The position numbers were made by a program, and so were the translations under genes. 30,174 nt of DNA, taken from a virus. The notes under the pieces were generated by a model, which saw nothing but the letters and a program-made list of their open reading frames with translations, was not told the DNA's origin and did not search any database. The stretch is from the IMG/VR virus record IMGVR_UViG_3300023116_000216, positions 1 to 30,174 of that record, one strand, 5' to 3'. This document shows positions 9,040 to 30,174 of the stretch, one piece after another. Numbering within the stretch: position 1 is the stretch's first letter; each line of letters starts with the position of its first letter.

Positions 9040-9047
9040 TATCAAAG

Positions 9048-11267: not shown

Positions 11268-11320
11268 TATTGATTTTTCCGGTAACTAACTCCCCTAAGG
11301 GTTTTTTCAATATTATGAGA

Positions 11321-11349
11321 ATTATAGCAACCCCTAACGTAATTGTCAA
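11321..11349 (-). promoter_or_regulatory. Consensus sigma70 promoter for the distal structural genes
   Basis: On the minus strand TTGACA (11344-11349) and TATAAT (11321-11326) are both perfect, with a 17-base spacer. The run AAAAAATAATT directly upstream resembles an UP element. The expected start is near 11314, giving a leader of about 47 bases before the gene at 11267. This is the strongest promoter sequence in the window. TTAGGGG occurs once in the spacer and again 39 bases downstream in the leader, a possible operator pair. Confidence 0.88.
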
Positions 11350-11374
11350 GAATTATTTTTTATGAGGTATACCA

Positions 11375-11911: not shown

Positions 11912-11920
11912 TTTTATCTC

Positions 11921-12295
11921 CTATAAATTATCTCTTATATTTGCTATTTTAGTTAAATACTCTTCTTCCGGGTCACCTAATTCAGTAACAAAACTAAAAT
12001 TAGTCATATTCTTATAAAAAGTTTCTTCTTGATCACCTATTATATTGCCAGGTCTATTTGATATATTAGATACTATTTCAGTAGCTTGTGTAAAATTACT
12101 GGCTCTTGCCAAGTCATCTATCATTTGAAGACATTCAACACAAGTAACCTGAAGAGGAGTCATAATAATTACAGCATCAGCATTTGTTAGGCCACAAATA
12201 GGAAGATTAATGTCACTTCCTGTTAAAATAAAATGTTTTGTAGGTTCTCCTGCGGGAGCAGGAGTGGGTGTTGGATCTTTAAAATAATTTACCAT
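11921..12295 (-). CDS. Small H-C-CxxC protein, paralogue A (putative zinc-binding)
   Basis: I do not recognise a named family for this 124-residue protein. After a Pro-rich start (TPTPAPAGEP) it shows KHFIL with His21, LPICG with Cys34, and VTCVECL with Cys52 and Cys55, a spacing that could bind one zinc. The C-terminal part (FYKNMTNFSFVTELGD, then LTKIANI) aligns with the end of the next gene, so the two arose by duplication. ATG 12295 has an AGGA site 6 bases upstream, formed across the stop of the fibre gene. It sits at the end of the tip/fibre unit, before the promoter at 11349. It could be a small virion or chaperone protein; the zinc role is inferred. Confidence 0.6.
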   Translation of the reverse strand: MVNYFKDPTPTPAPAGEPTKHFILTGSDINLPICGLTNADAVIIMTPLQVTCVECLQMIDDLARASNFTQATEIVSNISNRPGNIIGDQEETFYKNMTNFSFVTELGDPEEEYLTKIANIRDNL

Positions 12296-12303
12296 TTTTT
12301 ATC

Positions 12304-16600: not shown

Positions 16601-19600
16601 GTAATCATCTGACTCGAGTCGAACTGTTCTTGTTGCTAATTCCTCTGGCTTAATAGTAAGTTCCATTGGATAGAAGCGCAAAGAAGGACTAATTGAAGAG
16701 TCATTTCGTACATACCCAAATATACAGTCGTTATTTATATCAACATTAAACTGAGGTTTTTCGTAAGCAGCTCCCGATATAGCTGTATCGCTATTAATTA
16801 GATTTACGAGTAGCTCAGTATCACTATTAATTTGTGTAACAGTTGCAACAGTAGAGCCTGCTTTTATATAGCCGCCTACTGCAAAATCTGTAGTAAAAGA
16901 AGTACCAGAACCAGTTATAGTACTCGAACTCGCAGGAACTGATATAGTTCCAGATCCTGCACTCCAGTAAGTACTCGGTGCGCCGCCTCCCGATCCTGTA
17001 TCATATAAATACCAAATATTGTTTGTGGTATCATTATAATATTTTACCAGCCGAAGAGGGTCAGATGTATTACTAGCATCGAAGTAAATAAAATGAGAAT
17101 TGTTTCTTCGTTCAACGTCGGACCCCATCGCAGAAAAGTCTTGAGAGGGTACACCAGAAACATCCTGAATATACGTGTCAGAAGCTCCTGAGGTGAACTC
17201 GTATTGTTTAGCGGGGTTTCCTTTCGTCGTGAAGACATATGTATTGGCCTCAAATTGTAAATCGGTTCCTTCAATATCAATATCTTGACTAGAAGTGGCT
17301 CCTATAGGCACGCCGAAAAGTCGAGAAACTACTGTTTCTTTTTCGACTCCTACACCAAAAGTAACAGATGCAGCTCTTGACCGATTTCCGTTAGTTGCAA
17401 CTGTCTGTACAGATACAGTATAAGTTCCAAGAGGTAAGTTAAATCCTGTAACTGTCGTGGTATCTCTGGATACAAGATAGAAAGGTTGAAATTTGGGCCC
17501 AAAAGTATGAGTTATACGATATCCGCCGATAAAACCATAATCAGGGGCATCCCAACTAAGTGTTCCATCGTTGGCGACTGTTCCATTATCGAGATTCTCA
17601 AGTATCATCTTGAGATTCTTTGGCGGTGGAATACTGTCATCTATACCAAGCGGAGGATTTACTGGGTCAGTTACACTAAGAACAAAATCATCATCAATAC
17701 TGTCAAATTTTTCATTATAGTGTTCTACAGCTGTAATAGAGTATTCATTCTTTGAATCTTCTGTAATTGACAGAATCTTATAAGACTTTGCAGAGCCGAG
17801 AACTGGAAGACCCTCACTATTAGTCTCTCGTAGTGCCCACACGTTCTGTGCCTGCGGAGCCGCAGTAAAAGGAGAACTTACAGTAAGTGCATTTACAGTT
17901 CCTGCGCCAGTAGATACTGGTTGACTTTCAACTCGCGTATACTCGCTCCAAGTAACCTGCACGTCATCACCGCTATCATCAGTAAGATTACTTGCAGCAC
18001 TTTCAGTAGTAATTCCAGGTATTAAATCTCCTCTGGTATACACGGCGCTGCTAATAGTTGCAGTATCTTGGTTAAGAAATGCGCCTGGAGAAGTAATCAG
18101 TACATTGAGTTCATAAGTAGAGCCAACATTCAGCTCCACAGAACTATCCAGAGGTACTTGAGTCGTGCTAAGAGTTCCTGTAGAAGATATTCTTCCGCTG
18201 TAACGAACATCGCCAGGATGTCTATCTGCATCCTGTACCTGTATAATATCTCCAGGCATAAGAAAAGCTGCATTTATCGCAGTCTTAAATGATACAATCT
18301 CAGTTTGATTTATAGCAGTCCACAGCTTCCATCGACCATATCGAAGCGCTTGGCCCTCAGAAGTTGCACCGAAAGCTACAGCATTTTCCGAAATGATTTT
18401 TGAAGTCTTAATGATATTTTCGCGGTCTTCAACTATCAGAGCTTCCTGCCGATAGTCGGAGGATGGATTGTTCCATGTTACAATAACTTGGTTTGACCGA
18501 GTTCTATTCCCTGTGCCTTCATAGGCGAAAGTACCATCAATAACATTTCCTTTAGAAAAATTGTATATCGGGTCTCCCGCTCTGTCGGAAACAGCGTAAA
18601 TCTGTCCATCAAGCCAATAGAGCATACCTCTAAAAATCGTCGCCAGATCTTTGAGAACTTTGTAAGCATCGGTAGCCTTAGTCAAATATACATTTGAAGT
18701 AAATCGAGGCTCTTGACCTCCATTGCCGTCAGGCACTAATTCATCGCAGTATTTTGCAATTCGATACAGAGCGAACTTATCAATATCAGTCTCTTGAATC
18801 CAATTTCCTAGACCGTAGCGATTATTAACCACCATGTCGTAGAAAACCCACGCTGGATTATTTGTATATTCTTTCTCGGATTTGAAAGCACCCGACCATG
18901 TTCCTGAGTATGATGCGACTCCTGTGGAGGACTTTTCTCGAGTTGTGTAAGTATCTGGAACAAGTACCTTCATGCCTCGGCAGAGATAAGTTCTTTTTGG
19001 ATTATTCGAGAAATCTCTTGTAGAAAATCGTGTGTGTGCGTATGCTGTGTAAGGCCAAGTAAGTGGCTCTGAAATCACTGCTGTAAGTTGAGTAATTGTT
19101 GCAGCACTGGTTCCTTCATAGCCGTCTACATTGGGGCCGTTCGTGCCATAGTTTGCTGCTGCATCAATATTTGATTCTCTTGTAACACGAATCTTAAAGT
19201 TTGTAAACGTACCAAATTTATTAAGGTCTATAGTCTCTAAAAAGCTAATTGGAGAAGTGTGTGTTCCTCCGTGAAAAACCTCCAAATTATAGGGCTGATA
19301 TGCTCCGAAAGAAGAACCTGCCGCATCAGTAGCAAGTGCAACCTCTATCTTGTAAAAAGCTTGTCCAGGTAGAGTCGCTCCTTTATCAGATCTATTATAA
19401 AGTGCAGGATAATTAAAAAGAATTTTTACTAAGTCTGTCTGAGTATACTTATCAACAGTTCCTCCAGAGTAAAAATCGCTTCCAGCATATTCATATACTT
19501 GAGTTCCTGTGTCACCTGGCCCTACAATTGCATTACTAACAGAAGTAGTTACAGCAGCAGCACTGGAAAGGGAACTATCTTTTGAAATAATTGGGGCTTG

Positions 19601-21118
19601 TCCCAAAGTTCCTGTTCGAAATTGAGGAGTTGTATTTTTATACTTGCTTGTAGCAGTAGTACCAGAATCTATAGAGTTTCCAGAAATATTTCCTTTAAAA
19701 GTACCTGTGAGAGTGGAAGCAGAAGCGAGTGTAAATGTTCCGGTTGAATAACTTGCAACTTCATGAGCAACATCAACTCTTACAGAATAGGTCGCAGTAA
19801 AATCGGTTATTCTATTTATAAATCCTTCTGTAGCTATTCTAACAGAGGAAGCGCTCGTTCTAGATTCAATAGGTCCGGAAGCTACGACCTGTCCTTCAGA
19901 ATCAATAAGACTTACTATTGTGTAAGATTCTCCTCTACCTGCTACAGAGTCTCCCGATCCTATTGTATAGCTAGTATCAAATATAGATGTTACAGTATTT
20001 ACTGTAAGCCTGCTTTTATTTGGCCAGCCGGATGTTATTGCTACACTGCTAGTAGTGCCTGTTTCGCCGCCTACCGCTGTAAGGTATCTTTTTTCTGTGA
20101 AGTCACCAAAATCTAAATTGGAAGGAACATTTGCTGAAGTTACTGTAGTGGTTCCATTAAAAGTAAAGTCTGCTGAAGTTGCACTTGCATACACAGGACT
20201 ATCAGAAGCATCTGCTAATGGCTTATCATCAAAATATACAGACGAAGTGCCGTTTACAAGTCCGTAAATTGGCCCCTCTGAAATAATGTCGACTGCTGTA
20301 ATATACTGAGCATTTGATTTTACATTATTAAATTCAGAAGCGGAGTCAATATCGACGCCCTGTCCAGGATCATTAATATTCTCTAACCCACCCGAAGAAT
20401 CACTAGACGGAACATTTGCATCGTATGCCTCGTTTTCGGCTGCGTCAGTTATATTTCCCTCTGCATCTACCCAAGCATTAACAGCCGCTATGTCAGAACC
20501 AGACTTATAATCGTCTTGATCAATATTGAGAGAGACAGGCATTCCAGGTACGCGAAGTTCGCCGTAAAGAACAGGTACTGGGTCACCTTCGGAAACGTTT
20601 CTTTGTCCACCATTAAAAAGGTAGCTTTCTTCTGGGTCTGAGTCCACAGAGGGGTCAGGGGCCATAAGCTGCTGAATACCAGTTAATGCTAAGTTAGTCG
20701 CAATACCTGCGGCTACTAGACCATAGGTACTTAGTGTCTGGGCTCCAGCGGCCGTAGTGTTGAAGAAAAAGGCGTTTAATGCACCCGAGCCTCCTGCAGA
20801 CACTACTAATAGAGCTGCAACAGCAACTGCAGCTAGTATTTTTCCACCACCAGATTTTGAACCTCCGATGACAGGAGTAATGATAATATCACCTTCTCGA
20901 AAAGGCAACAGACATTCACGAGGATCTTCAAGCATTCGTCCCTGTATCTCTACAGAGAATCCTATATCTTGTTCATGAGCTTCAATTAAATATTTTCTAA
21001 AATCAGGATAGTTTGCCTGAATACAACGGAACGCTTCTGCAACGCTATCGCCACAGAAGTCCAGTACTGGAGTAATCTCTTTGCCTAAGTGTCCGTCTAA
21101 AAATATTTTACGGTTCAT
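13583..21118 (-). CDS. J: Central tail tip fibre: I-J fusion with S74 intramolecular chaperone
   Basis: At 2511 residues this is about twice the length of lambda gpJ. Residues 1-85 look like the beta-grasp start of lambda gpI. Residues 90-150 are a Gly/Ala hydrophobic segment, followed by SYLFNGGQRNVSEGDPVPVLYGE as in gpI. The J part begins near 270 (ITAVDIISEGPIYGLVNG) and keeps J landmarks: YLCRGMKVLVPDTY, YSGTWSGAF, NNRYGLGNWI, YCDELVPDGNGG, PGDIIQVQDADRHPG. An FN3-like domain (about 1164-1257) follows, then a 251-residue module present twice (1499-1749 and 1750-1989), three GDIW...YRW modules (about 1991-2170), glycine-rich triple-helix-like sequence, and a C-terminal S74 chaperone (from about 2413) with the Ser2416/Lys2421 pair in SDKRYK. 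It would form the trimeric fibre that contacts the host receptor. Confidence 0.93.
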   Translation of the reverse strand: MNRKIFLDGHLGKEITPVLDFCGDSVAEAFRCIQANYPDFRKYLIEAHEQDIGFSVEIQGRMLEDPRECLLPFREGDIIITPVIGGSKSGGGKILAAVAVAALLVVSAGGSGALNAFFFNTTAAGAQTLSTYGLVAAGIATNLALTGIQQLMAPDPSVDSDPEESYLFNGGQRNVSEGDPVPVLYGELRVPGMPVSLNIDQDDYKSGSDIAAVNAWVDAEGNITDAAENEAYDANVPSSDSSGGLENINDPGQGVDIDSASEFNNVKSNAQYITAVDIISEGPIYGLVNGTSSVYFDDKPLADASDSPVYASATSADFTFNGTTTVTSANVPSNLDFGDFTEKRYLTAVGGETGTTSSVAITSGWPNKSRLTVNTVTSIFDTSYTIGSGDSVAGRGESYTIVSLIDSEGQVVASGPIESRTSASSVRIATEGFINRITDFTATYSVRVDVAHEVASYSTGTFTLASASTLTGTFKGNISGNSIDSGTTATSKYKNTTPQFRTGTLGQAPIISKDSSLSSAAAVTTSVSNAIVGPGDTGTQVYEYAGSDFYSGGTVDKYTQTDLVKILFNYPALYNRSDKGATLPGQAFYKIEVALATDAAGSSFGAYQPYNLEVFHGGTHTSPISFLETIDLNKFGTFTNFKIRVTRESNIDAAANYGTNGPNVDGYEGTSAATITQLTAVISEPLTWPYTAYAHTRFSTRDFSNNPKRTYLCRGMKVLVPDTYTTREKSSTGVASYSGTWSGAFKSEKEYTNNPAWVFYDMVVNNRYGLGNWIQETDIDKFALYRIAKYCDELVPDGNGGQEPRFTSNVYLTKATDAYKVLKDLATIFRGMLYWLDGQIYAVSDRAGDPIYNFSKGNVIDGTFAYEGTGNRTRSNQVIVTWNNPSSDYRQEALIVEDRENIIKTSKIISENAVAFGATSEGQALRYGRWKLWTAINQTEIVSFKTAINAAFLMPGDIIQVQDADRHPGDVRYSGRISSTGTLSTTQVPLDSSVELNVGSTYELNVLITSPGAFLNQDTATISSAVYTRGDLIPGITTESAASNLTDDSGDDVQVTWSEYTRVESQPVSTGAGTVNALTVSSPFTAAPQAQNVWALRETNSEGLPVLGSAKSYKILSITEDSKNEYSITAVEHYNEKFDSIDDDFVLSVTDPVNPPLGIDDSIPPPKNLKMILENLDNGTVANDGTLSWDAPDYGFIGGYRITHTFGPKFQPFYLVSRDTTTVTGFNLPLGTYTVSVQTVATNGNRSRAASVTFGVGVEKETVVSRLFGVPIGATSSQDIDIEGTDLQFEANTYVFTTKGNPAKQYEFTSGASDTYIQDVSGVPSQDFSAMGSDVERRNNSHFIYFDASNTSDPLRLVKYYNDTTNNIWYLYDTGSGGGAPSTYWSAGSGTISVPASSSTITGSGTSFTTDFAVGGYIKAGSTVATVTQINSDTELLVNLINSDTAISGAAYEKPQFNVDINNDCIFGYVRNDSSISPSLRFYPMELTIKPEELATRTVRLESDDYSVVYDTSTSPDTIYISNGTSPPTITITATQTGFTNPVYRFKVNGAEFPAGSPEWVTDNFISGPVPATLADWNTGFFGSNPVVVSVEVAEDTPIKEVKATDSVSIFAVADGVDGNDGIDGYTVINTNSAHVFPAQTDGTVTSYTGSGTTFEVFKGAVELEGITTGTPTAGEYKITASATNIAASSTNGAAVSPGGAITFSDHSGMTGDTAEITYTFDIEGTSSGTQKQTFTVGKQGVAGTSGKVVRLEADDYSVVYDTSTSPDTVYISNGTSPPTITATATPSGFTNPIYRFKINGAAGSPEWITDNFISGQVPATLADWNAGFFGSNPVVVSVEVAENTSPEVVEASDSVSIFAVAEGVDGADGIDGYTVVLTNAAHSFTSDAAGNVSSYLGSGTDIEVFKGATELNSVTGTPTAGEFSVSVSASNITAGTTNVTANKFTIGDHSNMSAGSDTANIVYTLNIENLVTGDQKQTFSKSKQGTSGETFFQTSPPSGQGEVEGDIWFDSDDGFKIYRYQGSPLAWVNIQDQDIGQALLDAAEALGTMQIFVQTTQPSTSGRITGDIWIDISGSPAPPAVPYTYSMLYRWDGSSWVAAAADLIGRAHIDALNAIDAADAAQTTADGKIVSFVQATAPTADGVGDFWLDTDDNNKLYRWSGSAWVEYEQAGNLANAVGDLDDIADGSTFFKADANELTGASRAFNALDSSSDYKRTIQTSTIAVAGANPTSGVVIDNAGLRGYSGGTLGFNINTSGTVFFGGDIDTDGQLKSTGVVSSVSASQDACILGESTTSGRQGILGTNSTVSSGVVGFNSRGTVSTSGNAGVNGTSENGVGVYAQTLNSGSYALYLRNSAGGDAVFFNGSSPGVVGDVNFKDDVDIDLTLNVDGATTLKSGLAVTGDITATGDITAFFTSDKRYKDNVTPISNSLEKVTQLGGYEFDWNHVSPYEGMHDIGVIAQEVLKVAPEAVARRENDMLAVRYEKLVPLLIEAIKELKEEVEELKRGSAND
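15152..15871 (-). repeat. Copy 2 of the tandem duplication inside the central fibre gene
   Basis: This copy is about 240 codons long. It lacks a few residues present in copy 1 (for example EFPAGSPEW in copy 1 is AGSPEW here). It ends at KSKQGTSG, matching GKQGVAGTSG of copy 1. The first ~110 residues are much better conserved between copies than the rest. Confidence 0.88.
15872..16624 (-). repeat. Copy 1 of a 251-codon tandem duplication inside the central fibre gene
   Basis: This copy starts at VRLESDDYSVVYDTSTSPDT and ends at the next VRLEADDYSVVYDTSTSPDT, 753 bases later. The two copies share long near-identical stretches, such as YISNGTSPPTIT, VPATLADWN, GFFGSNPVVVSVEVAE and DSVSIFAVA, followed by a more diverged second half. 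Confidence 0.9.
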
Positions 21119-21800
21119 ATCTGTAAATTCCGGTTAAGTACTTTATCCATAAAGGGTATAAACTTTCTCTGCAAGATAGTCGATTTACTGCATGATGAAA
21201 CATCACATCATCACCAATAAAAACTCCGCAGTGATTAGGAACATCTGCTCCCATTGTAAAAATTAGTAAGTCTTGTGGCTGTGGGTCATCTTCTACTTTT
21301 CTAAAGCCCCACTCAGCTATATGCTCGTCTGTAAAATAATTGTGCCCTTTTTCCCACCAATCATCGAGATATGGGGCACGTTCTCTCAAATCTATATTAA
21401 AGTAATGCTTGTAGTAATCTCTTGCTGCCTCTAGGCAGTCTGTGACACCGAACTCATACTCTCTGCCTATAAGAGGATTCAGTACCTCTTCAGGCTCCAC
21501 AATATTTAAGTCCATACCAGGATAAGAAAATATCCAGTATGGTATTCCTAGTATGTTACAATGTTTGATATCATTGCTACTAGGATCAGAAGATCCGCCA
21601 GGATGGTTATGAACAATAGCGAATATGTCAGCTCTTTTTCTAATTTCATTATACTGCTTTGGGTCAAGTATGAAGTCTTCGTAGTCTTCGGCAAGATTGT
21701 CACAAGGAAACCACTCTTTCTTTCCTTTTACTATTCCAATTATGCCACACGCTTCTTTTGGATACCACTTGTCAAAGTGCTCCTGTATCTCTTCGATCAT
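21108..21800 (-). CDS. K: Tail tip assembly protein K: JAMM/Mov34 and NlpC/P60 domains
   Basis: This 230-residue protein has the two-domain layout of lambda gpK. Residues about 1-105 form a JAMM metalloprotease-like domain: Glu16 (KEACGII), then HNHPGGSSDPSSND with His64, His66, Ser74 and Asp77, which fits the H-x-H-x7-S-x2-D zinc motif exactly. Residues about 115-230 form an NlpC/P60 domain with Cys122 (VTDCLEAARDYY), His190 (PNHCGVFIG) and a third His near 202-203 (MFHHAV). The gene lies between L and the I/J fusion; it overlaps L by ATGA and the fusion start by 11 bases. Possible roles are processing of a tail protein or local peptidoglycan cleavage. All catalytic residues appear intact. 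Confidence 0.92.
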   Translation of the reverse strand: MIEEIQEHFDKWYPKEACGIIGIVKGKKEWFPCDNLAEDYEDFILDPKQYNEIRKRADIFAIVHNHPGGSSDPSSNDIKHCNILGIPYWIFSYPGMDLNIVEPEEVLNPLIGREYEFGVTDCLEAARDYYKHYFNIDLRERAPYLDDWWEKGHNYFTDEHIAEWGFRKVEDDPQPQDLLIFTMGADVPNHCGVFIGDDVMFHHAVNRLSCRESLYPLWIKYLTGIYRYEP

Positions 21801-22723
21801 CTAAACTTCCTGCTGCCTGGGAATGCTCCAAAAGGCAAGGGTTCGGTTGTCATATGTCTTTGTGCGCCGCCATCTACATCGGCATTTCCATTTATGTCTG
21901 GTCGAAACTGAAATCTTGCTTTACAAGAAGAAAGTTTCTTACCGCAGACATCTCCACGAACCCAAAAGCGAGAGTCTGGGTCTGGAGTATTTCCTGTTCC
22001 TGCGCGTACACACTTCCATACAGTGTTATCATATTCTACATAGTCGTCTACAGCATAAGCTGTAGCTGCGGAATATACTGTGTAAGTTTCGTAAGGAATT
22101 GTGAGTGTATCACCAGAAGGAATAATTGGCACATCCCCATCTGTAAAATATGCTTTATAATCGGTACCGTCTATATTAATCTGGCTGTTTACTCTCCAGG
22201 TACATCCACCGACATCTGACCTATCGTATCCCTGATATACCCAAGAGCAGTATTTTCCAACTACAGTTCTACCTGGAATTGTGATACCTGTAACATCAAA
22301 GGGTGCAGCGAGTTCAAAAGATACGGAGACAGCGGTTTCTGCTGAGATTCTGTCTATATAGTAAATCTTTTTGGGAAACTCGACAGTTGGGCTTGTAGAG
22401 AGATGCTGCTCAAGAGTGCTACGAACAGTAACTTTTGTACCAATAAGGTCTTTGTTTTGAAGCCCGCCAAGAGAATCTGACCAAGTAGAAAGTACATTCG
22501 CTACAGTCATCTCGGGGCGGTTGATAGCTCCGTCAGCATTTATCTCAAGGCCAGTAACTTCAATTGGAAATGCTGAGTAAGTATTTCCATCAAACACAAG
22601 ATCTGCAAGAGTCTCGTCGACTCCTGGGTGCAGATATATGGTTCCTCCTGAGAGTTCAATTTCATAGAAGTATAGTATTCCACCTATCTCATGAAGTTGA
22701 ACTACATCTATTAAATCTGTCAT
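21797..22723 (-). CDS. L: Minor tail protein L (probable Fe-S, with inserted carbohydrate-binding-like module)
   Basis: This 308-residue protein matches lambda gpL in position, length class and C-terminal cysteines. Lambda L binds an iron-sulfur cluster through four cysteines; the likely equivalents here are Cys159 (GKYCSWVY), Cys174 (VGGCTWR), Cys260 and Cys267 (VCGKKLSSCKARF). Residues 1-155 carry the N-terminal minor tail domain (IEVTGLEINADGAINRPEMT). Between the two cysteine pairs, about residues 213-258, lies a segment like CBM5/12 modules (YSAATAYAVDDYVEYDNTVW, then PDSRFWVRG) containing a fifth cysteine, Cys238. Both ends overlap neighbours as ATGA. Family assignment is firm; the binding module is an inference from pattern. 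Confidence 0.88.
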   Translation of the reverse strand: MTDLIDVVQLHEIGGILYFYEIELSGGTIYLHPGVDETLADLVFDGNTYSAFPIEVTGLEINADGAINRPEMTVANVLSTWSDSLGGLQNKDLIGTKVTVRSTLEQHLSTSPTVEFPKKIYYIDRISAETAVSVSFELAAPFDVTGITIPGRTVVGKYCSWVYQGYDRSDVGGCTWRVNSQINIDGTDYKAYFTDGDVPIIPSGDTLTIPYETYTVYSAATAYAVDDYVEYDNTVWKCVRAGTGNTPDPDSRFWVRGDVCGKKLSSCKARFQFRPDINGNADVDGGAQRHMTTEPLPFGAFPGSRKFR

Positions 22724-23103
22724 GCTTCGTAAACTCTTCTAAAGGTTGCTGTAACTGTATGGCAGTCGTTCTGAGTATAGACCATATTCCAGGTCTCGCA
22801 TACTACTTTGAGCGTTCTTTCGGGAGGTGACTCATTCGTATCACTAATTGTATAATTAAAGGAGGTTGCGCCACCGAGAGACTCGAAGTAGCCTACTATA
22901 TCATCCGCTTCGGCGGATGGCCGATTGACGAAGGATATGTTGAAAGTCTCAGCTACGCTATTTATGCCATCAATCGCTCTTTGTTCATATCCATCGCCAA
23001 AACGAGCAGTAAGAACTTTGGGATTACTTCTTTTAGCTAAAGAACGGTCTGGTTTTATATCCCTGCTTCCATATGGTGCTGAAGTTGTAAATCCGATCGC
23101 CAT
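22720..23103 (-). CDS. M: Minor tail protein M (lambda gpM family)
   Basis: This 127-residue protein joins the tube end to the tail tip, as lambda gpM does. The diagnostic family motif is present around residues 32-45: TARFGDGYEQRAIDGIN, which aligns with lambda VRFGDGYSQRAPAGLN. The rest follows the family pattern: a beta-rich middle (ETFNISFVNRP), a helix (ADDIVGYFESLGG), TSFNYTISD, and a closing pair VCETWNMVYTQ / HTVTATFRRVYEA. Start ATG 23103 overlaps the tape measure stop (TAATG), and its own stop overlaps the L start (ATGA), so translation of H, M and L is likely coupled. Confidence 0.9.
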   Translation of the reverse strand: MAIGFTTSAPYGSRDIKPDRSLAKRSNPKVLTARFGDGYEQRAIDGINSVAETFNISFVNRPSAEADDIVGYFESLGGATSFNYTISDTNESPPERTLKVVCETWNMVYTQNDCHTVTATFRRVYEA

Positions 23104-26100
23104 TATGCTACTCCATACGGACTAAGTATTCCGCCTGCTCTCTTTTGATTCTGAAGTTCTTTTTGTACTGCTTGTGCAATAATGTTTCCAATATTTGGCC
23201 CCTGCTGGGAAGTATCGGTAGTAGCATTACCTTGATTATCAATAGCTACATTTACTGTAACATTATTCTGTTGACTTGAGCCTCCCATCATTTCTACAGG
23301 AATAGACCTTCCGTTAGGGAGCGGGACGACGGCTTCCGTACCATGTAAAATGGCTGGATAGCCCGAAGTGCTTCCTGAAGCAACACCGCCGGAAGAATAG
23401 CTTGGTACAGTTTTACCGTTACTTACTACACCTCCCATTCTAACTGATGGTGGTGCAGGTGCAGGTAGCAGGGCTGTATTAAAGTTTTGTGATTGGTCTA
23501 AAATAGCATTACTAGTAGACGCAGAAGTCGATAGACCTGAGATCGCTGCTTGAAGAATGCGAATTGTAAGCATCTCAGCAATAACTTTAGAAAGTGACTT
23601 CAATATATTTGTCGCCATATTTGCAAAAGCATCTTTTATGCTCATGGTTCCTTGAATAACAGAGTCAAAGGCAGAAGCCATTCCAGTTTGAAAATTATCT
23701 CTAAATGTTGCAGTCAATCTACCAAGATCACTAATTTGTTCTTCTTTTTGCCTCTGAAGATTTTCTAGTCTTGTTAGTTCCGCTCTTGCCCGCTCTAGTT
23801 CTAACTTTTTCTGAGCTTCTAAGGCAGGATTTAATTTTGCTTCTTCTATCGCAATCAATAAGTTTTCTATCTCTAATTGCTTTTGTCTTACGTCTAGCAA
23901 TGCGCTTTCAGCTTGAATCTGTCTATTAATTTCTTGAGATAGAAGGGTTCCCGCCATCACAGATTTATCTGTAGCCTCTTGAAGAGCGATTCTAGAAAGA
24001 GCTAGTTTTTGTTGAGACTCTATTAATCCATCAATTCTGTTCTTAAGAGCTACAAAGTCTCCGCCTTGTACGGCTTCATTTAATTTTTCAAAAGCATTTT
24101 CTTGGCCTTCTAGTTCTCCAAATGTTCTAACAACTGCTTGAGCAGCAACATCCGCATTCTCTAAAGCCGTTGCTAAATTAAATAGATCTGGGCTCAAGAG
24201 TGCTTCTTTTAATGCTACTATAGAGTTATCCAAACTAGCATTAAAACTAATAGCTTCTGAAGACGTTTCTTGTAGTTCTTGAAGTTTTTGTATTAGTGAT
24301 CCTACGTCGTCCCCGGCTTCTTCTAAAGCTCTCGATACAAGGGGGAGACTAGTATTTCCTAATAACTCTAAGACATCGCTAGTTTTTCCGAGCTTTACTG
24401 CATCTTCTAATAGTCTTGCTAGAGGTAAGGACTGATAGGCTTGAAGCTCTCTAAGTGTTCTCTCTACACCAGTATCTTCAAAACTAAAGCCTCCTTGGAT
24501 TGCTTCCAAGTCTTCTTTTACTGTGGATAAAGAGTCTGCGAATTGTTTATTTGCTTCTTCCGCAGCTAACGTGGCTTGTGTATTACTTTGAAGAACCATT
24601 GTCCAATTGGCAAAAGTACCTAATAGTCCATCTCCCTCTAAAGCACTCTGAAGGTCAATTGCATACTCCGTATTTTCAAACAGTGCGTCACCTAAATTTT
24701 GTAGACTATTTTGAAGATTATTGTCTAAATCAAAGCCTATTTTGGCCTGTTCTAATTCTATAAGGGTTTCGTTTAGGTCAAATAAACCGCTAGAGTTAAG
24801 TGCTATGAGTACTTTTTGGGCTAAACTTATAAATGTTTGGGCAACATAATCAGCAAACTCTCCTATTACTTTTTGTATATCTCCGAGTCCTCTTAAGAGA
24901 GAAGCTAAGGGAACTCTTATAAGACTTAGAGTTTTATTTACTATTGCTTCTATCCCTTTGACAATAGCTGTTAAAAAGTTAAATGCATTTGCCTGAAGTT
25001 GCTTAAAAGCTTCTACAAGAAGGGTAATAGTTCCTATGAAGCCAATGATGCTTACTGCTTTATTTATAGCCGCTCCAGCAACAGATGCCGTTTTAGCAAG
25101 CCCAGTCATTGTTTGAGACCAACGTAATTTTATACCCGCAGTAAATTTTTGAAAGCCTAATCCTACAAGCTTGAACTGGTTAGCAGTTTTCTGCCTCCAA
25201 GAGATTGTAAGATTGTTTTTCTTTTCCAATGACTCTTTTAACAGTTTAACTCTTCTTATAGCCTGTCCTTTAAAAATACCTGTAGTAATTTTTCCATTTT
25301 CTTCATATTGACGCTCTGCTGACTTAAATGCTTTTCGTAAATTAGCTTCATCAGATGCACGTAATTTTTCTCCATCCTTAATTCTTTTAAGTATAGGAGA
25401 CTCCGAACCTCTATCAACAATGCCGCCAGCTATTTTCTTTCTTCTTTCATCCTCTCTTTTAACTAGTTGCTCTACACTTAATGTTGCTTCACTAATTTTT
25501 TTCTTATAGCTTTCTACTCTATTCTTTGCATCATCATACGCTTCTCTTTGGCCCGCTGACCATTCATCAATTTTTTCATTAAATTTACCAAAAGGAACAA
25601 TTGCTTTTAATATTGATAAGCCAAAAAGACCGAAAGCAGCAATAGCAGCACCCGCAGATCTATTAAGAACTTCAGCTAGAGAAGATACTATGGGTAAAAA
25701 CTTTTGGGAGATGTCTTTTACGAGCTTATCGAAAGTTACCGATAGCTTGATAAAAGGATTAGATTGCAGTTCTTGAGAACCAAACTGCTGGTTGAGTTGT
25801 CTTTGTACTTCTAATAATACGGCTTGGCTTCTTTCAAATTCTGTGAGTTGGTCTACGTTCTTACCTAGAGCTGCTGAATACTGCTCAGTGGCATTCTTGA
25901 GCCTTAGAGTGATACCTAGTTCGTCCAAGAGTTCTGGTTCGGCTTTTGAAACACCTCTTAACAGTCTATTAAAAGAGTCTTCAAAGTCTCTACCAAGTGC
26001 AGAAGATACTTTTCTTGCTCCCTCTGCTAACTCGTTTAATTGATCAGGACTAAATCCTTTCGCTAATCCAATAGCTGCTGCTTCTGAGGCCTGTCTGAAT

Positions 26101-26513
26101 GTCAACATCGAGCCACTAGCTAACTGAACATCTCTCGCAACAGTTTTCATAGCTATGCCAGTGCTTTGAGCAAAGCTTAACTGGCTCTTTTCTAATATAG
26201 CTAAATCTGCTTGCCTTCTAAAGAAGTTAAAAGCGGCACTAACGGCGAATACGTTTGCTGCGAGAGTGGCATATGCGGGTACAAGAGTGCCTCCAATGCC
26301 CTGAGACATCTTAGAAAAGTTTTTAGTAGCATTAGCAGAAGCCTTAGCAGCTCCTTTTAGGTTTCTATCCGCAGTTCCTGCGGATTTCCCAAGATTTTCT
26401 GAAGTTTTTCCTGCTTTAGTTGTAGATTTTGCAAGTTTCTCAACTTGACCTTGCACAATCTTTATGTTTTTGCCTTCCGCTACAATGGTTAGGAGGACGT
26501 CACTTTTAGCCAC
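23103..26513 (-). CDS. H: Tail tape measure protein (lambda H-like)
   Basis: This 1136-residue protein sets tail length and passes into the host during DNA injection. It starts at GTG 26513, overlapping the T frame by 8 bases. The first ~250 residues resemble a tape-measure head domain seen in several phages (MLTFRQASEAAAIGLAKGF, then RGVSKAEPELLDELGI). Two hydrophobic stretches, near residues 285-305 and 475-500 (SIIGFIGTITLLVEAF), could cross a membrane during injection. Residues about 825-935 form a long charged coiled coil (LEIENLLIAIEEAKLN, ELERARAELTRLENLQ). The C-terminus has the Gly/Ser and Val-rich end (NNVTVNVAID, then ELQNQKRAGGIL) typical of tape measures. At roughly 1.5 angstrom per residue the tail would be about 170 nm (inference). 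It ends in a TAATG overlap with M. Confidence 0.92.
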   Translation of the reverse strand: MAKSDVLLTIVAEGKNIKIVQGQVEKLAKSTTKAGKTSENLGKSAGTADRNLKGAAKASANATKNFSKMSQGIGGTLVPAYATLAANVFAVSAAFNFFRRQADLAILEKSQLSFAQSTGIAMKTVARDVQLASGSMLTFRQASEAAAIGLAKGFSPDQLNELAEGARKVSSALGRDFEDSFNRLLRGVSKAEPELLDELGITLRLKNATEQYSAALGKNVDQLTEFERSQAVLLEVQRQLNQQFGSQELQSNPFIKLSVTFDKLVKDISQKFLPIVSSLAEVLNRSAGAAIAAFGLFGLSILKAIVPFGKFNEKIDEWSAGQREAYDDAKNRVESYKKKISEATLSVEQLVKREDERRKKIAGGIVDRGSESPILKRIKDGEKLRASDEANLRKAFKSAERQYEENGKITTGIFKGQAIRRVKLLKESLEKKNNLTISWRQKTANQFKLVGLGFQKFTAGIKLRWSQTMTGLAKTASVAGAAINKAVSIIGFIGTITLLVEAFKQLQANAFNFLTAIVKGIEAIVNKTLSLIRVPLASLLRGLGDIQKVIGEFADYVAQTFISLAQKVLIALNSSGLFDLNETLIELEQAKIGFDLDNNLQNSLQNLGDALFENTEYAIDLQSALEGDGLLGTFANWTMVLQSNTQATLAAEEANKQFADSLSTVKEDLEAIQGGFSFEDTGVERTLRELQAYQSLPLARLLEDAVKLGKTSDVLELLGNTSLPLVSRALEEAGDDVGSLIQKLQELQETSSEAISFNASLDNSIVALKEALLSPDLFNLATALENADVAAQAVVRTFGELEGQENAFEKLNEAVQGGDFVALKNRIDGLIESQQKLALSRIALQEATDKSVMAGTLLSQEINRQIQAESALLDVRQKQLEIENLLIAIEEAKLNPALEAQKKLELERARAELTRLENLQRQKEEQISDLGRLTATFRDNFQTGMASAFDSVIQGTMSIKDAFANMATNILKSLSKVIAEMLTIRILQAAISGLSTSASTSNAILDQSQNFNTALLPAPAPPSVRMGGVVSNGKTVPSYSSGGVASGSTSGYPAILHGTEAVVPLPNGRSIPVEMMGGSSQQNNVTVNVAIDNQGNATTDTSQQGPNIGNIIAQAVQKELQNQKRAGGILSPYGVA

Positions 26514-27292
26514 TAGTTTTTCTCTTCATTTTCTTGTGCTCTCTCTGTATTCTCTCTTGAGATTTAGTTATAGTATGAGCATCAAGTCTTGATAATATCT
26601 GAAGAACAAGTTCAGTATTATCTACATCGTAAAGATCTAAATAAATTGGTAAATTTGTATAATCTTTTCCCATGTAGCCTATTTCTGGGTATACTCTATT
26701 TCCGAGCATATGAAATATACTTATAGCTATCGCTACAATTTCTGGAAAATCATCGTCCCCTGGAGGGCATTTAGCAGGATCAGGCTCTCTACCAAGCTGC
26801 TCCTGCATAGCTAAATACTTACTTTTAGTTATTTTACTATCTTCAGCCTCTAGCCAGTCATCTAGACGCTTCCAAAGTAGTTCAGTCTGCTCTTGTCCGA
26901 AACGTGTCTAGATCAAATGCTACCTCATTGATCCACTGATCAAATTCGGCAGAATTCTCAACTAGACGCTCCGCATTTTCTAAGTCAAAAGGTAGTTCAG
27001 TATCTAAAGGATTGTCTCCTACATCAATGAGAATAAGAGTCTCTAAATACCCAAGAGTTAAACCTTTCCAATTTTTTATGATTGCCTTTGTAAATGCTTT
27101 TACAAATTTTTGCTCGTCCAGAATCTCTTCCATTTGACGAGTGCTACGGCCCATTTTATGAGTAGTACATTCTTTCTTTAACTTTAATAGTTCTTTTCTA
27201 GAAAGATTTGCTACCTCGACCTCAAATCCCGGACAATCGGGATACTCAACCCAAGCGGATTTACTATCCACCATTAAGTCATCAAGTTTCAT
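26506..27292 (-). CDS. G-T: Tail assembly chaperone G-T fusion via programmed +1 frameshift
   Basis: The T frame is open from 26907 to its stop at 26506, so it overlaps the end of G by 26 bases and is +1 relative to it. An ATG at 26808 exists but has no Shine-Dalgarno, and the upstream T-frame codons read as good protein (GQEQTELLWKRLDDWLEAED), so the frame begins before that ATG. A shift at UUU-C (26899-26902) would join G residue Phe131 to the T frame and give about 261 residues: join of 27292-26900 with 26898-26506. The T part has a Pro-rich start (REPDPAKCPPGDDDFPEI), a hydrophobic helix, and a basic tail (REHKKMKRKTSG), suiting a tape-measure-binding domain. It overlaps the tape measure start by 8 bases. 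Confidence 0.65.
26882..27292 (-). CDS. G: Tail assembly chaperone G (lambda gpG-like)
   Basis: This 136-residue acidic, mostly helical protein lies between the tube protein and the tape measure, the place of lambda G. Such chaperones bind the tape measure during assembly and are absent from the virion. Recognisable features are an N-terminal strand region (AWVEYPDCPGFEVEVANLS), then helices (KELLKLKKECTTHKM, EILDEQKFVKAFTKAI with NWKGL) and an acidic end. Start ATG 27292 has a GGAG Shine-Dalgarno at 6-base spacing. Like other G genes it has an overlapping downstream frame without its own ribosome site, reached by frameshifting at its extreme 3' end. Confidence 0.75.
   Translation of the reverse strand: MKLDDLMVDSKSAWVEYPDCPGFEVEVANLSRKELLKLKKECTTHKMGRSTRQMEEILDEQKFVKAFTKAIIKNWKGLTLGYLETLILIDVGDNPLDTELPFDLENAERLVENSAEFDQWINEVAFDLDTFRTRAD
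26899..26902 (-). other. Candidate +1 slippery site UUU-C
   Basis: In the G frame the codons are ACG UUU CGG ACA. A Phe tRNA on UUU can move forward to UUC, placing the ribosome in the T frame; the next zero-frame codon is CGG, an Arg codon that is rare in many bacteria and may cause a pause. The shift must occur between the T-frame stop at 26908-26910 and the G stop at 26882-26884. No -1 heptamer of the X-XXY-YYZ type fits, and -1 would not reach the T frame. Confidence 0.5.
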
Positions 27293-27339
27293 GTAATCTC
27301 CATATTAATTTTAGTGCATTTAATCCCAAAGTTATGCAC
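27289..27339 (-). CDS. Possible 16-residue leader peptide ORF before G
   Basis: A GTG at 27339 is preceded by a GAGGAG Shine-Dalgarno about 10 bases away and opens a 16-codon frame (MHNFGIKCTKINMEIT). Its TGA overlaps the ATG of G as ATGA, an arrangement typical of translational coupling. G also has its own GGAG site, so this ORF is not needed for G to be translated. It may be a chance frame; the clear Shine-Dalgarno and the exact overlap are the only support. Confidence 0.25.
   Translation of the reverse strand: MHNFGIKCTKINMEIT
27314..27339 (-). repeat. Inverted repeat GTGCAT...ATGCAC in the leader of G
   Basis: Two perfect 6-base arms (27314-27319 and 27334-27339) flank 14 bases, 22 bases upstream of the G gene start. 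It could be a protein-binding site or a weak RNA hairpin. The right arm contains the GTG that could start a 16-codon leader ORF. Function unknown. Confidence 0.35.
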
Positions 27340-27394
27340 GGAAGGATTTCTCCTCTGTTTCTTCAGGACAATAATCCGAATAAACTAGCAAGAG

Positions 27395-27419
27395 AAAACG
27401 GGGGAGAAGATCTCCCCCG
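27395..27419 (-). terminator. Intrinsic terminator after the major tail gene
   Basis: A 9-bp GC-rich inverted repeat (arms 27399-27407 and 27411-27419, 3-base loop) is followed on the minus strand by TTTTCTCTT and preceded by an A-tract. It should terminate, or partly terminate, the abundant tube mRNA. On the plus strand it is also followed by six T's, so it could work both ways. It lies only a few bases after the predicted start point of the promoter at 27429-27457, so that promoter's RNA would begin with this hairpin. Confidence 0.75.
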
Positions 27420-27428
27420 ATTTTTTAA

Positions 27429-27457
27429 ATTATACCTAACTACTACCAAAAAGTCAA
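27429..27457 (-). promoter_or_regulatory. Sigma70-type promoter upstream of the tail chaperone / tape measure genes
   Basis: On the minus strand TTGACT (27452-27457) and a perfect TATAAT (27429-27434) are separated by exactly 17 bases, in the AT-rich gap after the tube gene. The predicted transcript start is near 27422, immediately before the GC-rich hairpin at 27399-27419. It would supply G, G-T, tape measure and tip genes independently of the tube transcript. Confidence 0.7.
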
Positions 27458-27477
27458 GTAATATTTTTTACAAGGTC

Positions 27478-28599
27478 TTACGCCTTATAAATAATTGTTG
27501 CTTCGTCAGTCAGGTCAACATCACCGTTAGAAACTTGGCCATGGAAGGCAACATCAAGAGTGATCAGATCTTCAACATTGATTGCTGGTACTTCAAGATG
27601 AGCAGTAGGCATGTCGAGAACTAATCGTGGTGTAGAAGCGGTTTCTCCACCGATGTTGATAGCCATATCGAATACGTTTCGTACGGTTGTAGTATCTGCT
27701 ACGAGGTCGGCAAAGAGTTCGCCAGACTTTGAAGCAGATTGGTCATTATCCAGGTAGCAAGTAAGGTTACCTGTAATTGTTCGTGCACCTGTAATATTTA
27801 CACAAGGCTGATTTACTACACCGAGTTCCTCCGGAGTGAGGTAAGTGATATTATTTTCAATAGTAAATGAACCGCCAGTAAGTACAATATTATAAGTGTC
27901 ATCTGGGGATACGTCAGTACGCACCAGGCTTACAGTAGAGATACGGTTACGAATGATAGCACAGCTTTCATCAAGTCCGTTTGTCAATGCTGCTGCAACA
28001 TTAGTAGCATCAGCGCCTGCAAGAGTAGTACCGAGATCTGTAAGCGCACTACCAAAACCTGACCACTGAATAGTACAAATACCTTCGATATCGAAGTCAA
28101 TAGTCAGTGAATTTACAACTGCCTTATCAATCTTATAATACTGAGTATTTGAACCGTCCTCAAACGCTACAATAACTTCCCAGTTTTCTGGAAGAGATGA
28201 AAGGTTTGATTGTGACAGATTAAAAGTATTTTCTGTAGCGCTTACAGCGTTTACTGCGCTTGTATTATTATCAAATACACCGCTGGCTGCTGTAAAACCA
28301 TCAGCACCAAATGCCATTGCCCAAAGAGCTTCTTCAGGGCAACGAACTTGATCCGGGCTAGGGCTTACGAAATTAAAAGGTCTTGCGTAAGTGCTAAAAC
28401 TCCATTCTACTGGTGCCAAGCTGTCGTTAAATAGCAAACGAGCGCGACGAGAGGTCGCCCCTGCTTCGTTCACCGTAATTTCAGTAGCGTTTACATTCTG
28501 AGAAAAGCTGAATCCATCTAGTACATTAATCTGCCAAGCATCCCCGCCGGTAGACTCAATGAGATAGACTTTCGCATTTCTGGTAAATTGTAATGCCAT
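27478..28599 (-). CDS. Major tail tube protein, T5 pb6-like
   Basis: This 373-residue protein would form the stacked rings of the tail tube. From memory it resembles T5 pb6 in several places: RNAKVYLIES near the start, TEITVNEAG (about residues 38-46), FNDSLAPVEWSFSTY (about 57-71), then GGSFTIENNITYLTP and TGNLTCYLDND in the second half, each with a recognisable pb6 counterpart. That suggests the T5-type tube, in which one chain carries two tube folds and rings are trimers. It lacks the extra C-terminal Ig-like domain of pb6. ATG 28599 is preceded by a strong GGAG Shine-Dalgarno at 5-base spacing, fitting high expression. A promoter candidate and leader hairpins lie upstream, and a terminator-like hairpin lies about 60 bases downstream. 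Confidence 0.85.
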   Translation of the reverse strand: MALQFTRNAKVYLIESTGGDAWQINVLDGFSFSQNVNATEITVNEAGATSRRARLLFNDSLAPVEWSFSTYARPFNFVSPSPDQVRCPEEALWAMAFGADGFTAASGVFDNNTSAVNAVSATENTFNLSQSNLSSLPENWEVIVAFEDGSNTQYYKIDKAVVNSLTIDFDIEGICTIQWSGFGSALTDLGTTLAGADATNVAAALTNGLDESCAIIRNRISTVSLVRTDVSPDDTYNIVLTGGSFTIENNITYLTPEELGVVNQPCVNITGARTITGNLTCYLDNDQSASKSGELFADLVADTTTVRNVFDMAINIGGETASTPRLVLDMPTAHLEVPAINVEDLITLDVAFHGQVSNGDVDLTDEATIIYKA

Positions 28600-28612
28600 A
28601 TTCTTTCTCCAA

Positions 28613-28647
28613 AACAGATTACTCTGTTATCTTAACCTATAAGGTTA
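28613..28647 (-). promoter_or_regulatory. Two hairpins in the leader of the major tail gene
   Basis: Two perfect short inverted repeats lie side by side in the tube gene leader. One pairs 28633-28638 with 28642-28647 (6 bp, 3-base loop) and includes the terminator gene's stop codon. The other pairs 28613-28618 with 28623-28628 (6 bp, GUAA loop of the GNRA class on the transcript). They end just before the GGAG Shine-Dalgarno. They could stabilise the 5' end of an abundant mRNA or mark a processing site; neither has a following U-tract, so they are not terminators. Confidence 0.4.
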
Positions 28648-29097
28648 GTATCGAACTTCGCAGATTATCTCGCCAACACCAAGAGGGTCAAGTGCTCCTT
28701 CATCAGAGTCAATACTAATAATACTGATATGATGCGTACATTGAGTAACTCCATCTTGATCTACATACTCTAATCGAGAATTATTCTCAATTACAGTTTC
28801 TACGTCTTCAAAAAGTTTTTCTAATGCAAAGACAGCGCCCTCTTCGTTCACATAAACTCTTATGGTTAAGCTGAGAAATCTGTCTTTATATCCTCCACCC
28901 TGGTACTGTCGAGTCTCTGCTCCCGCACTTACATGAAGTGCAGGAAAATCTGTTACCTCATCCCAAAATATAAGTCTGGGGAGTATATTATTATTTAAGT
29001 TTGTTCTGAATGGCGTATTTCCATTTATGTCTTTAAACTTATTCTCAAGTGCGGTCACAATTGCCATCCGCCTTGAAGTATAGTCTCTATCCGCCAT
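28645..29097 (-). CDS. Tail terminator protein (lambda U-like position)
   Basis: This 150-residue protein would cap the finished tail tube and form the interface with the head. Its length fits tail terminators (lambda gpU about 130 residues, T5 p142 about 160). It has the usual layout: an N-terminal helix (TSRRMAIVTALENKF), a loop with proline and acidic residues (FWDEVTDFPALHVSAG), a central strand (FLSLTIRVYV), a helix (ALEKLFEDVETVIEN), and a final strand pair ending GEIICEVRY. It starts at ATG 29097 with an excellent AGGAGAG Shine-Dalgarno and overlaps the upstream stop by one base. It is followed by the tube gene, as in lambda (U then V). Identification rests on order, size and fold pattern, not on a signature residue. 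Confidence 0.7.
   Translation of the reverse strand: MADRDYTSRRMAIVTALENKFKDINGNTPFRTNLNNNILPRLIFWDEVTDFPALHVSAGAETRQYQGGGYKDRFLSLTIRVYVNEEGAVFALEKLFEDVETVIENNSRLEYVDQDGVTQCTHHISIISIDSDEGALDPLGVGEIICEVRY
28664..28691 (-). promoter_or_regulatory. Candidate sigma70 promoter for the major tail protein
   Basis: On the minus strand TTGACC (28686-28691) is separated by 16 bases from GATAAT (28664-28669), one mismatch from consensus in each box. The expected transcript start is near 28657, about 60 bases before the tube gene start. It lies inside the last codons of the terminator gene. A dedicated promoter would fit the need for many copies of tube protein. Not tested against chance occurrence. Confidence 0.45.
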
Positions 29098-30174
29098 TAT
29101 ACTCTCCTAGTATAAAATCTTCCTATTAATAAATTTGCTGCTATCTCTCTTATAGAGTTATCAATAAGTCTTCGAGGATCTCTGTCCTTACTGCCCTGTC
29201 TATATCCAGGTTCGAAAGTTTGATAGGGTCTTTTCATATAAGTATACCCTATGCTTGGATAGCCTCTTGCTGTAAGAGCAATGTCTGTTATTTTTACTGA
29301 ACGAGCAAATCTTCCTGTTCTATATCTAAGTGCAGGATAGTTCATATTTCCCGCAACAGTTTGTGTTATTTTTTGATTCAGTAAAGCTAACAAGGACACA
29401 GCAGACTGTGCCGCTTGAGTTTTAGCAACTTTAGGGGTTATAACTCCTATTGAACCTCTTTTTGCTATTCCTTTCTTTGTCTTTTTCTTTCTTGTTTTCT
29501 TAACAGTCTTGTTAGAATACTTAGGCTTTGTATTGTTTTTTGTAAGTTTTTTTAAATTTTTTCCTTCTTTTATATTATCCTCAAAAGAAGCAATAATTTT
29601 CTTTTCTTCTATAGTTTTTCTACTATCAGAACCTTCTATTTTAGTCCAGCTTTTCTTTTTATTTATAGCTTCTACTAATTTTTCAAGCTGAGCCTTAGTT
29701 CTATTTGCTCTTTTCTTTAGCTTTGTTGCACCCTCTGATCTATTTCTATTAGCTCCTTCAAAGCCAACTTCAAATTCTGTCTTTTGCTTACTATCCTTTT
29801 TAGTAAGTTTCATAGTAAAGCCTAAGTCTGATAATTCTTTTTCTGAAATACCTTCTTCGCGTATTTTTTCAGATATTCTAAACTTAGTCTCATTGCCTCT
29901 AAAATTAGCTACTGCGGTGGCCCCTTTATGCCCTAAGTCTAAAAAATTTCCTTTATCTATTTCTTGTTTTTCTTCGTTTTTTAGAACTACATTTATCTTA
30001 TTTACTAGTTCATTTTTTGGTGCTTTTATTGACTTCTGAAAACTTCTAAAAACGTTTCCAACTCTTCCTCCAGAAGCCTTGCCTTCCATTACTACACTAA
30101 AGTTTGCTAAATTTCCGGTTACTTTAGTCCATTCGTCATAAAAAGGTTTATTGTATTGAGAATAAACCTTCTGA
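29097..30174 (-). CDS. Putative tail-completion / head-tail connector protein (5' end outside window)
   Basis: This is the first gene of the tail cluster, sitting where lambda has Z, directly before the tail terminator, with which it shares a TAATG stop/start overlap. An ATG exists at 30089, but the frame stays open to the window edge (upstream codons read ...YDEWTKVTGNLANFSVV then M) and that ATG has no Shine-Dalgarno, so the true start is probably beyond 30174. Counting from that Met, residues about 40-220 are very rich in Lys, Arg and Glu and look helical or disordered. The last ~110 residues are folded-looking, with motifs MNYPALRYRTGRF, YMKRPYQTFEPGY and IREIAANLL, which I associate from memory with phage neck or tail-completion proteins. 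The role is inferred mainly from position; the long basic region is unusual for such a protein. Confidence 0.55.
   Translation of the reverse strand, partial: QKVYSQYNKPFYDEWTKVTGNLANFSVVMEGKASGGRVGNVFRSFQKSIKAPKNELVNKINVVLKNEEKQEIDKGNFLDLGHKGATAVANFRGNETKFRISEKIREEGISEKELSDLGFTMKLTKKDSKQKTEFEVGFEGANRNRSEGATKLKKRANRTKAQLEKLVEAINKKKSWTKIEGSDSRKTIEEKKIIASFEDNIKEGKNLKKLTKNNTKPKYSNKTVKKTRKKKTKKGIAKRGSIGVITPKVAKTQAAQSAVSLLALLNQKITQTVAGNMNYPALRYRTGRFARSVKITDIALTARGYPSIGYTYMKRPYQTFEPGYRQGSKDRDPRRLIDNSIREIAANLLIGRFYTRRV

Follow-up and report, generated by a model that had tools for sequence, protein, structure and literature searches.

A promoter-like site and a terminator-like hairpin, in either order, at the end of the tail tube gene in a large group of uncultured phages

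The tail tube protein of a phage is present in far more copies per virion than the tape measure protein, and the locus described here raises the question of how two such genes, lying one after the other on the same strand, may be expressed at different levels. Just after the tube gene, a strong promoter-like sequence is followed within a few nucleotides by a hairpin that looks like a terminator; one may ask whether this hairpin serves the mRNA that arrives from the tube gene, or the one that would start in front of it. The window (the whole stretch of DNA analysed, 30,174 nt) is a 30-kb virus record whose tail genes are on the - strand according to PHROG matches: neck/tail completion protein, tail terminator, tube, chaperone, second chaperone frame and tape. 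Upstream of the junction lies the open reading frame of the major tail (tube) protein (27478-28599, -, 373 aa; PHROG 3575 major tail protein, E 9.5e-56). The first gene downstream encodes a tail assembly chaperone (26882-27292, -, 136 aa; PHROG 313, E 2.9e-18), followed by the second chaperone frame (26506-26808, -; PHROG 3914, E 8.5e-18) and by the gene of the tape measure protein (23103-26513, -, 1136 aa; PHROG 3779, E 8e-45). The cultured homologues of the tube protein, among the matches listed, are mostly T5-like phages, with at most about 37% identity. Two tube queries made in search of a closer cultured relative each returned 903 phage records, all below 60% identity (at most about 37% among the matches listed), and the DNA search for a cultured relative matched three Proteus phages, over 65 bases only.

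Some features of this region are worth recording in their own right. The open frame of the second chaperone extends back beyond 26882 in a different frame from that of the first, so that it is probably reached by frameshift. It is +1 (or -2) relative to the first chaperone and opens near the end of the latter, in the TTTCGGACAAGAG region, where the frames overlap; a +1/-2 programmed frameshift between the two is likely. From the coordinates of the open reading frames, the relatives L007, L021, L051, L086 and L118 have the same +1/-2 look, and L015, L044, L104 and L116 a -1 look. A 16-codon frame (27339-27289, -), which runs from GTG to TGA and has AGGAG upstream, overlaps the chaperone start codon as ATGA; it may possibly encode a leader peptide or serve translational coupling. 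Elsewhere in the window, an imperfect tandem repeat of 189 bp (2.4 copies, 2535-2992) lies inside the open reading frame 2075-3631.

Read on the - strand, the junction consists of TTGACT (27457-27452), 17 nt, TATAAT (27434-27429), TTAAAAAAT, CGGGGGAGA-TCT-TCTCCCCCG (27419-27399) and TTTTCTCT. The first two elements, both found by the promoter scan and the -10 box also by the extended-pattern search, are hexamers of the TTGACA/TATAAT kind with a spacer of 17, as in sigma70-type promoters; the score is 11/12, and the -35 box starts 20 nt past the tube stop codon. Directly upstream of the -35 box is a AAAAAATA tract (27462-27469, -) that resembles an UP element. This tract is identical in the 12 sequences of an alignment, A1, of the window and 11 relatives, and looser in wider relatives. 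Transcription usually starts 7 nt after the -10 box, which gives a predicted start near 27422, so the new RNA would enter the stem of the hairpin at its position +4.

The hairpin (27399-27419, -) is a GC-rich stem of 9 bp, including 7 G-C pairs, closed by a 3-nt loop (-16.6 kcal/mol). It starts 9 nt after the -10 box, and the U-rich tail TTTTCTCT (27391-27398, -) follows immediately, as in intrinsic terminators; it ranks first in the list of terminators from the scan of 11000-30174. The earlier note on this DNA had described, at 27395-27457, this promoter with a start near 27422 and, within a few nucleotides of it, this hairpin with a U-tract; its coordinates and description are correct, and the tube, chaperone and tape identities that it gave agree with the PHROG matches. 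The hairpin was called as terminator-like on both strands, with an A tract on one side of it and a U tract on the other; the ten proteins searched against PHROG are all encoded on the - strand, and no convergent gene is known at the hairpin. Another strong terminator-like hairpin (9017-9040, -), with TCTTCGG at its top, occupies the gap between the gene that ends at 9048 and the gene that starts at 8834; none of the listed promoter-like sites is inside that gap. The identification of the junction hairpin as a known RNA family was rejected, since the six Rfam matches in 26800-27700 are weak and none comes near the gathering score.

Is the hairpin simply a part of this type of promoter? A search of the window for the extended form AAAAAATA-NNN-CTTGAC-N18-TATANT, which tolerated 3 mismatches at most, gives two occurrences, at 27429-27469 and at 11321-11361, exactly in both cases (shuffle mean 0.05), and TTGAC-N18-TATANT also occurs twice versus 0 control matches. 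A looser promoter scan of the window found no excess of promoter-like sites (49 versus 46.5 expected), so that only the strong, extended form is informative. The second promoter of this type (TTGACA-17-TATAAT, 11321-11349, -), found by promoter scan and pattern search, has the same A tract but no such hairpin, which shows that the hairpin does not belong to this type of promoter as such. A relative of 106 kb contains 15 promoters of the same type (control 1), a single one of which has a terminator-like hairpin within 120 nt: that of the tube boundary. The idea of a general phage late promoter always accompanied by a 5' hairpin was rejected on these grounds, the hairpin being absent at 11321-11349 and from 14 of the 15 promoters of the 106-kb relative.

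The arrangement recurs in relatives. In the first 20 related loci that were found by similarity of the tube protein, which correspond to 12 distinct junctions by eye (including the window), a promoter is followed by a hairpin throughout, the latter being weak in L013 and L014. The A tract, CTTGAC and TATA are invariant in these 12 junctions, while the hairpin sequences differ. RNAalifold predicts 4 pairs only from A1, an alignment ill suited to hairpins so unequal in length and position, and these were therefore compared sequence by sequence.

For a wider count, 308 sequences were reduced to 199 loci with a tube hit, 190 of which passed the filters (tube hit of at least 150 bits, open reading frame of at least 600 nt, 160 nt available downstream), and to 113 distinct junctions once those more than 90% identical over the first 100 nt had been removed. 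The relatives are a sample, taken among the matches listed in protein searches and in a promoter-pattern scan. The thresholds (promoter score of at least 10/12; stem of at least 6 pairs with 4 G-C; 4 T in 8; hairpin start at most 25 nt from the -10 box) were fixed after the first loci had been inspected and before the wider count. Among these matches, 47 of the 113 distinct tube ends have the order of the window, promoter then hairpin (class A), and 32 have the hairpin first and then the promoter (class B); of the others, 11 have a terminator-like hairpin but no promoter and 23 have neither, five T5-like references being included in these groups without promoter.

At the chosen thresholds, every one of the 79 junctions that bear a promoter thus also has a terminator-like hairpin, on one side only, and the best spacer is 17 in all of them. 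One of the 79 is the window; 69 come from protein searches, which are blind to the junction, and 9 from the promoter-pattern scan, which is blind to hairpins (4 of these 9 were also recovered by the protein searches). Extending the reach of the hairpin from 25 to 60 nt, or dropping the T rule, leaves the counts unchanged, and other settings shift at most 7 of the 79. With laxer stems, a hairpin appears on both sides in 5/79 (3 G-C pairs allowed) or 6/79 (5-bp stems), and under stricter rules (at least 5 G-C pairs, 5 T) 7/79 have no hairpin. The hairpins keep their T-rich tail: removing the T-tail requirement adds 0 junctions. Promoter and terminator in either order were found in 0 of 1580 dinucleotide shuffles of the 79 promoter-bearing junctions, a control that ignores relatedness, and in 0 of 101 gaps elsewhere in these loci, 5 of which have a promoter alone. 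A special status of the tube/chaperone boundary is supported by this comparison (79/113 tube ends versus 0/101 other gaps).

A scan of viral contigs by the promoter pattern alone, which returned at least 120 stretches, leads to the same place. Among 144 distinct occurrences of the pattern, in loci among the matches listed, a hairpin containing at least 5 G-C pairs follows in 18 cases. The window and the tube search account for 10 of them, and the other 8 sit at a tube boundary according to a gene-by-gene check (in one of them, L087, only the end of the tube gene is present). The observation holds, and the arrangement turns out to be conserved, and specific to this boundary, across a large set of uncultured phages.

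The conserved position bears on the possibility that promoter and hairpin form a gene for a small RNA of ~30 nt that acts in trans, to which we give almost no credence. A near-consensus promoter immediately followed by a terminator is indeed the minimal layout of such a gene. Against this, the sequences of the loop and of the segment from promoter to hairpin vary widely among relatives, the Rfam matches are those mentioned above, and the element is placed at the tube boundary.

The two orders are interspersed on the tree of 112 tube proteins, from which L248 was omitted as short. Before counting, three labels were changed by hand (those of L025, L027 and L178): a pair of T5-like references went to class D and one hairpin-only end to class C, which gives 10 members in class C (hairpin only) and 24 in class D. 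To account for class A takes 13 gains or losses, of which well-supported branches force no fewer than 7; for class B the count is 9, of which no fewer than 6 are forced in this way. Changes between A and B counted alone amount to 9, class D being one side of a branch. The type of the downstream gene changes 14 times on the same tree, and on independent pairs we found no association between the A/B order and this type. The tree of the tube protein need not be that of the junction, which can travel with the downstream gene by recombination. As read from this tree, the order of the predicted signals has changed repeatedly at one gene boundary. The ten tube ends that, after relabelling, have a hairpin and no recognisable promoter suggest that the promoter is not always needed.

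The distances are short in both classes. Counted from the -10 box, the stem of class A begins at 4-23 nt and is complete at 28-46 nt. In class B, 22-29 nt separate the end of the hairpin from the -35 box. Between the tube stop codon and the -35 box there are 9-41 nt in class A and 51-78 nt in class B. The order of the signals places the hairpin at the very start of the predicted next mRNA in class A, whose initial 45 nt have a mean folding energy of -18.0 kcal/mol (mean z -3.8), versus -3.4 kcal/mol (mean z -0.1) in class B, where z is below -2 in 3 of the 32 junctions. Class B being mostly devoid of a strong 5' hairpin, such a hairpin is not generally required by the chaperone/tape mRNA.

This argues against a role of the hairpin as a 5' stabiliser of the chaperone/tape mRNA, in the manner of ompA or papA, which we consider very improbable as its main function. 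The about 3 nt that precede the stem in the window would suit this role, and 5' hairpins can stabilise mRNA (as an excerpt of PMC3997798 has it). In addition, L013, L014 and L157, which have a strong separate terminator before the promoter, keep a weaker hairpin, of the GGTAGAAA/TTTCTGCC type, just after it (they are counted as terminator-first, the weak hairpin falling under the G-C threshold). Besides the terminator-first junctions, most of which do without a marked 5' hairpin, two observations speak against protection: the hairpins retain a T-rich tail, which is needless for it, and 19 of the 23 class A members with a long leader have 8-12 unpaired nucleotides at the 5' end. This is too many for the known effect of 5' pairing. 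The earlier note had proposed that one hairpin ends the tube mRNA and begins the next, possibly protecting it. The layout does allow the same hairpin to do the former two, and it is the protective part that is weakened; as a general reason for the arrangement, 5' protection was rejected on comparing both orders, the ompA/papA type being at odds with most of the 32 terminator-first relatives.

If the hairpin ends the tube mRNA, how would polymerases that start just in front of it get past? By simple folding, the hairpins of class A are not weaker than those of class B (-15.1 kcal/mol on average after the promoter versus -12.8 before it), so that they may stop most of the RNAs initiated at the promoter too. 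CTTCGG loops are typical of firm terminators. Such a loop is present in 21 of the 32 hairpins that precede the promoter and in 1 of the 47 that follow it. On independent pairs, and with a slightly wider definition of the loop, the contrast goes in the same direction in 4.9 of 6 pairs on average and never in the opposite one (median p 0.06, range 0.03-0.25). The scarcity of CTTCGG in class A, which is not significant once phylogeny is counted, is suggestive: it is as if embedded hairpins had to stay passable.

The leader between promoter and stem gives another hint. Among the 23 long-leader members of class A (20 of which were aligned, for viewing only), the leader complements its own loop better than the loops of others in 19, a value that is reached in 0 of 5000 permutations that ignore relatedness; these leaders are not complementary to their own tail (p 0.91). 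In the 24 short-leader members, including the window, the leader complements the sequence after the stem in 16 cases (0 of 5000 permutations, which again ignore relatedness), and no leader:loop complementarity was found (p 0.87). The leader of the window has just a short AAAA/UUUU match to its own tail. The leader:tail pairing lies partly upstream of the predicted start, so that it could form in full only in an RNA that arrives from the tube gene. As the permutations ignore relatedness and the leader:loop pairing comes in about three types of sequence, these complementarities are to be taken as a lead.

It could belong to a built-in attenuator: the promoter would mostly yield a terminated RNA of ~30 nt, and pairing of the leader with the loop, or a phage factor, would let a fraction pass, which would provide control of timing or dosage. 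The complementarity in 19 of the 23 long-leader members agrees with this, and when the RNA is cut 3 nt into the 3' arm, leader:loop pairing is predicted in 19 of 23, a figure that has no control. We consider this mechanism quite unlikely, since the few sequence types, which seem to track the downstream gene, represent few independent events, the early pairing (-1.7 to -6.1 kcal/mol) is weak compared to the complete hairpin (-11 to -23 kcal/mol), and the short-leader members, the window among them, lack the pairing with the loop.

That both orders occur and swap while the distance stays short, within the ranges given above, is also what one would expect if termination were coupled to restart. 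A polymerase retained on the DNA after release of the tube mRNA would slide to the adjacent promoter, within ~60 bp on either side, and start again, which would tie tape and chaperone to tube at a fixed ratio; the order of the signals would be free because sliding works both ways. In excerpts of two single-molecule studies (PMC6978380, PMC6978322), E. coli RNA polymerase is kept after termination and reinitiates at a downstream promoter in 37% of cases (55% where this was set against the upstream one); with added sigma, it reinitiates at its original promoter, upstream, in 43%. According to a 2024 paper (PMC11347151), the efficiency is set by sigma availability and distance, not by direction, and the process had yet to be demonstrated in vivo; antisense transcription that starts close to terminators in vivo agrees with it. 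A short distance is also predicted by the compactness of phage genomes, a near-consensus promoter could recruit polymerase unaided, and the use of the host polymerase is an assumption. The authors of PMC11347151, in the excerpted text, expect little benefit of recycling for lytic phages, speaking of phages that have their own polymerase. All considered, we regard coupled restart as unlikely here.

The explanation that we think probable is that the junction is a compact boundary of transcription units, where the hairpin ends the tube mRNA and the promoter starts the chaperone/tape mRNA, with partial read-through. The hairpin with its U-rich tail would be the terminator of the tube mRNA, at which most polymerases arriving from the tube gene would halt. 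The strong sigma70-type promoter just upstream would launch the chaperone/tape mRNA; polymerases that start there would transcribe the hairpin within the first ~25 nt and pass it in part. The level of chaperone and tape would then be the product of promoter strength and read-through, set apart from that of the high-copy tube. We infer these steps, from termination at the hairpin to partial read-through and the tube/tape ratio, from the arrangement of the signals. The most likely role of the hairpin is to end the tube mRNA, because it replaces the ordinary terminator whenever none precedes the promoter. The idea of the earlier note, that a single shared hairpin allows tube and tape to be expressed at different levels, is plausible and partly supported.

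Several known systems share a part of this design. An ordinary boundary between codirectional genes has one intrinsic terminator and one sigma70-type promoter, in the order that is seen in the 32 class B relatives; unlike it, the window and 46 relatives place the terminator downstream of the promoter, within the first ~40 nt of the new transcript. The T-phi terminator of T7 is a leaky terminator that follows gene 10, which encodes the high-copy major capsid protein, and lowers the expression of the genes that follow. Our proposal is similar in that a leaky terminator would follow a high-copy structural gene, but no T7 promoter is known to be fused to T-phi, and T7 relies on a polymerase of its own. 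In lambda PR'-tR' and in amino-acid attenuators, a terminator comes early in the transcript of its own promoter, as does the terminator-like hairpin in the predicted transcript here; the phage hairpin differs from them in that about 20 nt at most separate it from the predicted start, and in being also at the transcript end of the upstream gene.

The same geometry is found in an in vitro construct, the T7A1-tR2 38-bp template (Kang 2020, PMC6978380), which in the excerpted text fits a strong promoter together with an intrinsic terminator into about 40 bp; the phage junction is natural and conserved, and it also receives polymerase from an upstream gene. With the T7A1 promoter and lambda tR2 releasing at +38, termination is 33-39%, and 58% with NusA (same excerpt), which makes partial read-through from such a position realistic. 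Recycled RNA polymerase restarts at nearby promoters, upstream or downstream, as described in excerpts of that paper and of Harden 2020 (PMC6978322) and Song 2024 (PMC11347151). A promoter and a terminator within tens of bp and free in order fit recycling, and they fit simple compactness as well.

The T5-like phages (Demerecviridae) have homologous tube and chaperone proteins and a different layout: the end of the tube gene and the start of the next one are at most about 15 nt apart (in four annotated reference loci), and 5/5 cultured references (L023-L027) have a promoter-like site, scoring at least 11/12, some 200 nt ahead of the tube gene. We note that this site is inside the preceding gene in the four that are annotated, and that a GATATAAAAAC tract precedes the -35 box in 4 of the 5. 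In classes A and B, no strong promoter (at least 11/12) was found in the 300 nt before the tube gene in any of the 58 loci with enough sequence. The arrangement described here was not found in titles and abstract openings of the open literature on phage promoter/terminator overlap, on T5-like late promoters and terminators and on tube/tape transcription, which is no proof of its absence from print.

In these phages, the expression of the tube and that of the tape thus appear to be separated at the level of transcription by a very small element. Since both orders have apparently been built several times at the same boundary, these junctions form a natural comparison set, which may serve to address how a terminator acts on a polymerase that has just started, compared to one that comes from a distant origin, and whether restart at an adjacent promoter takes place in cells.
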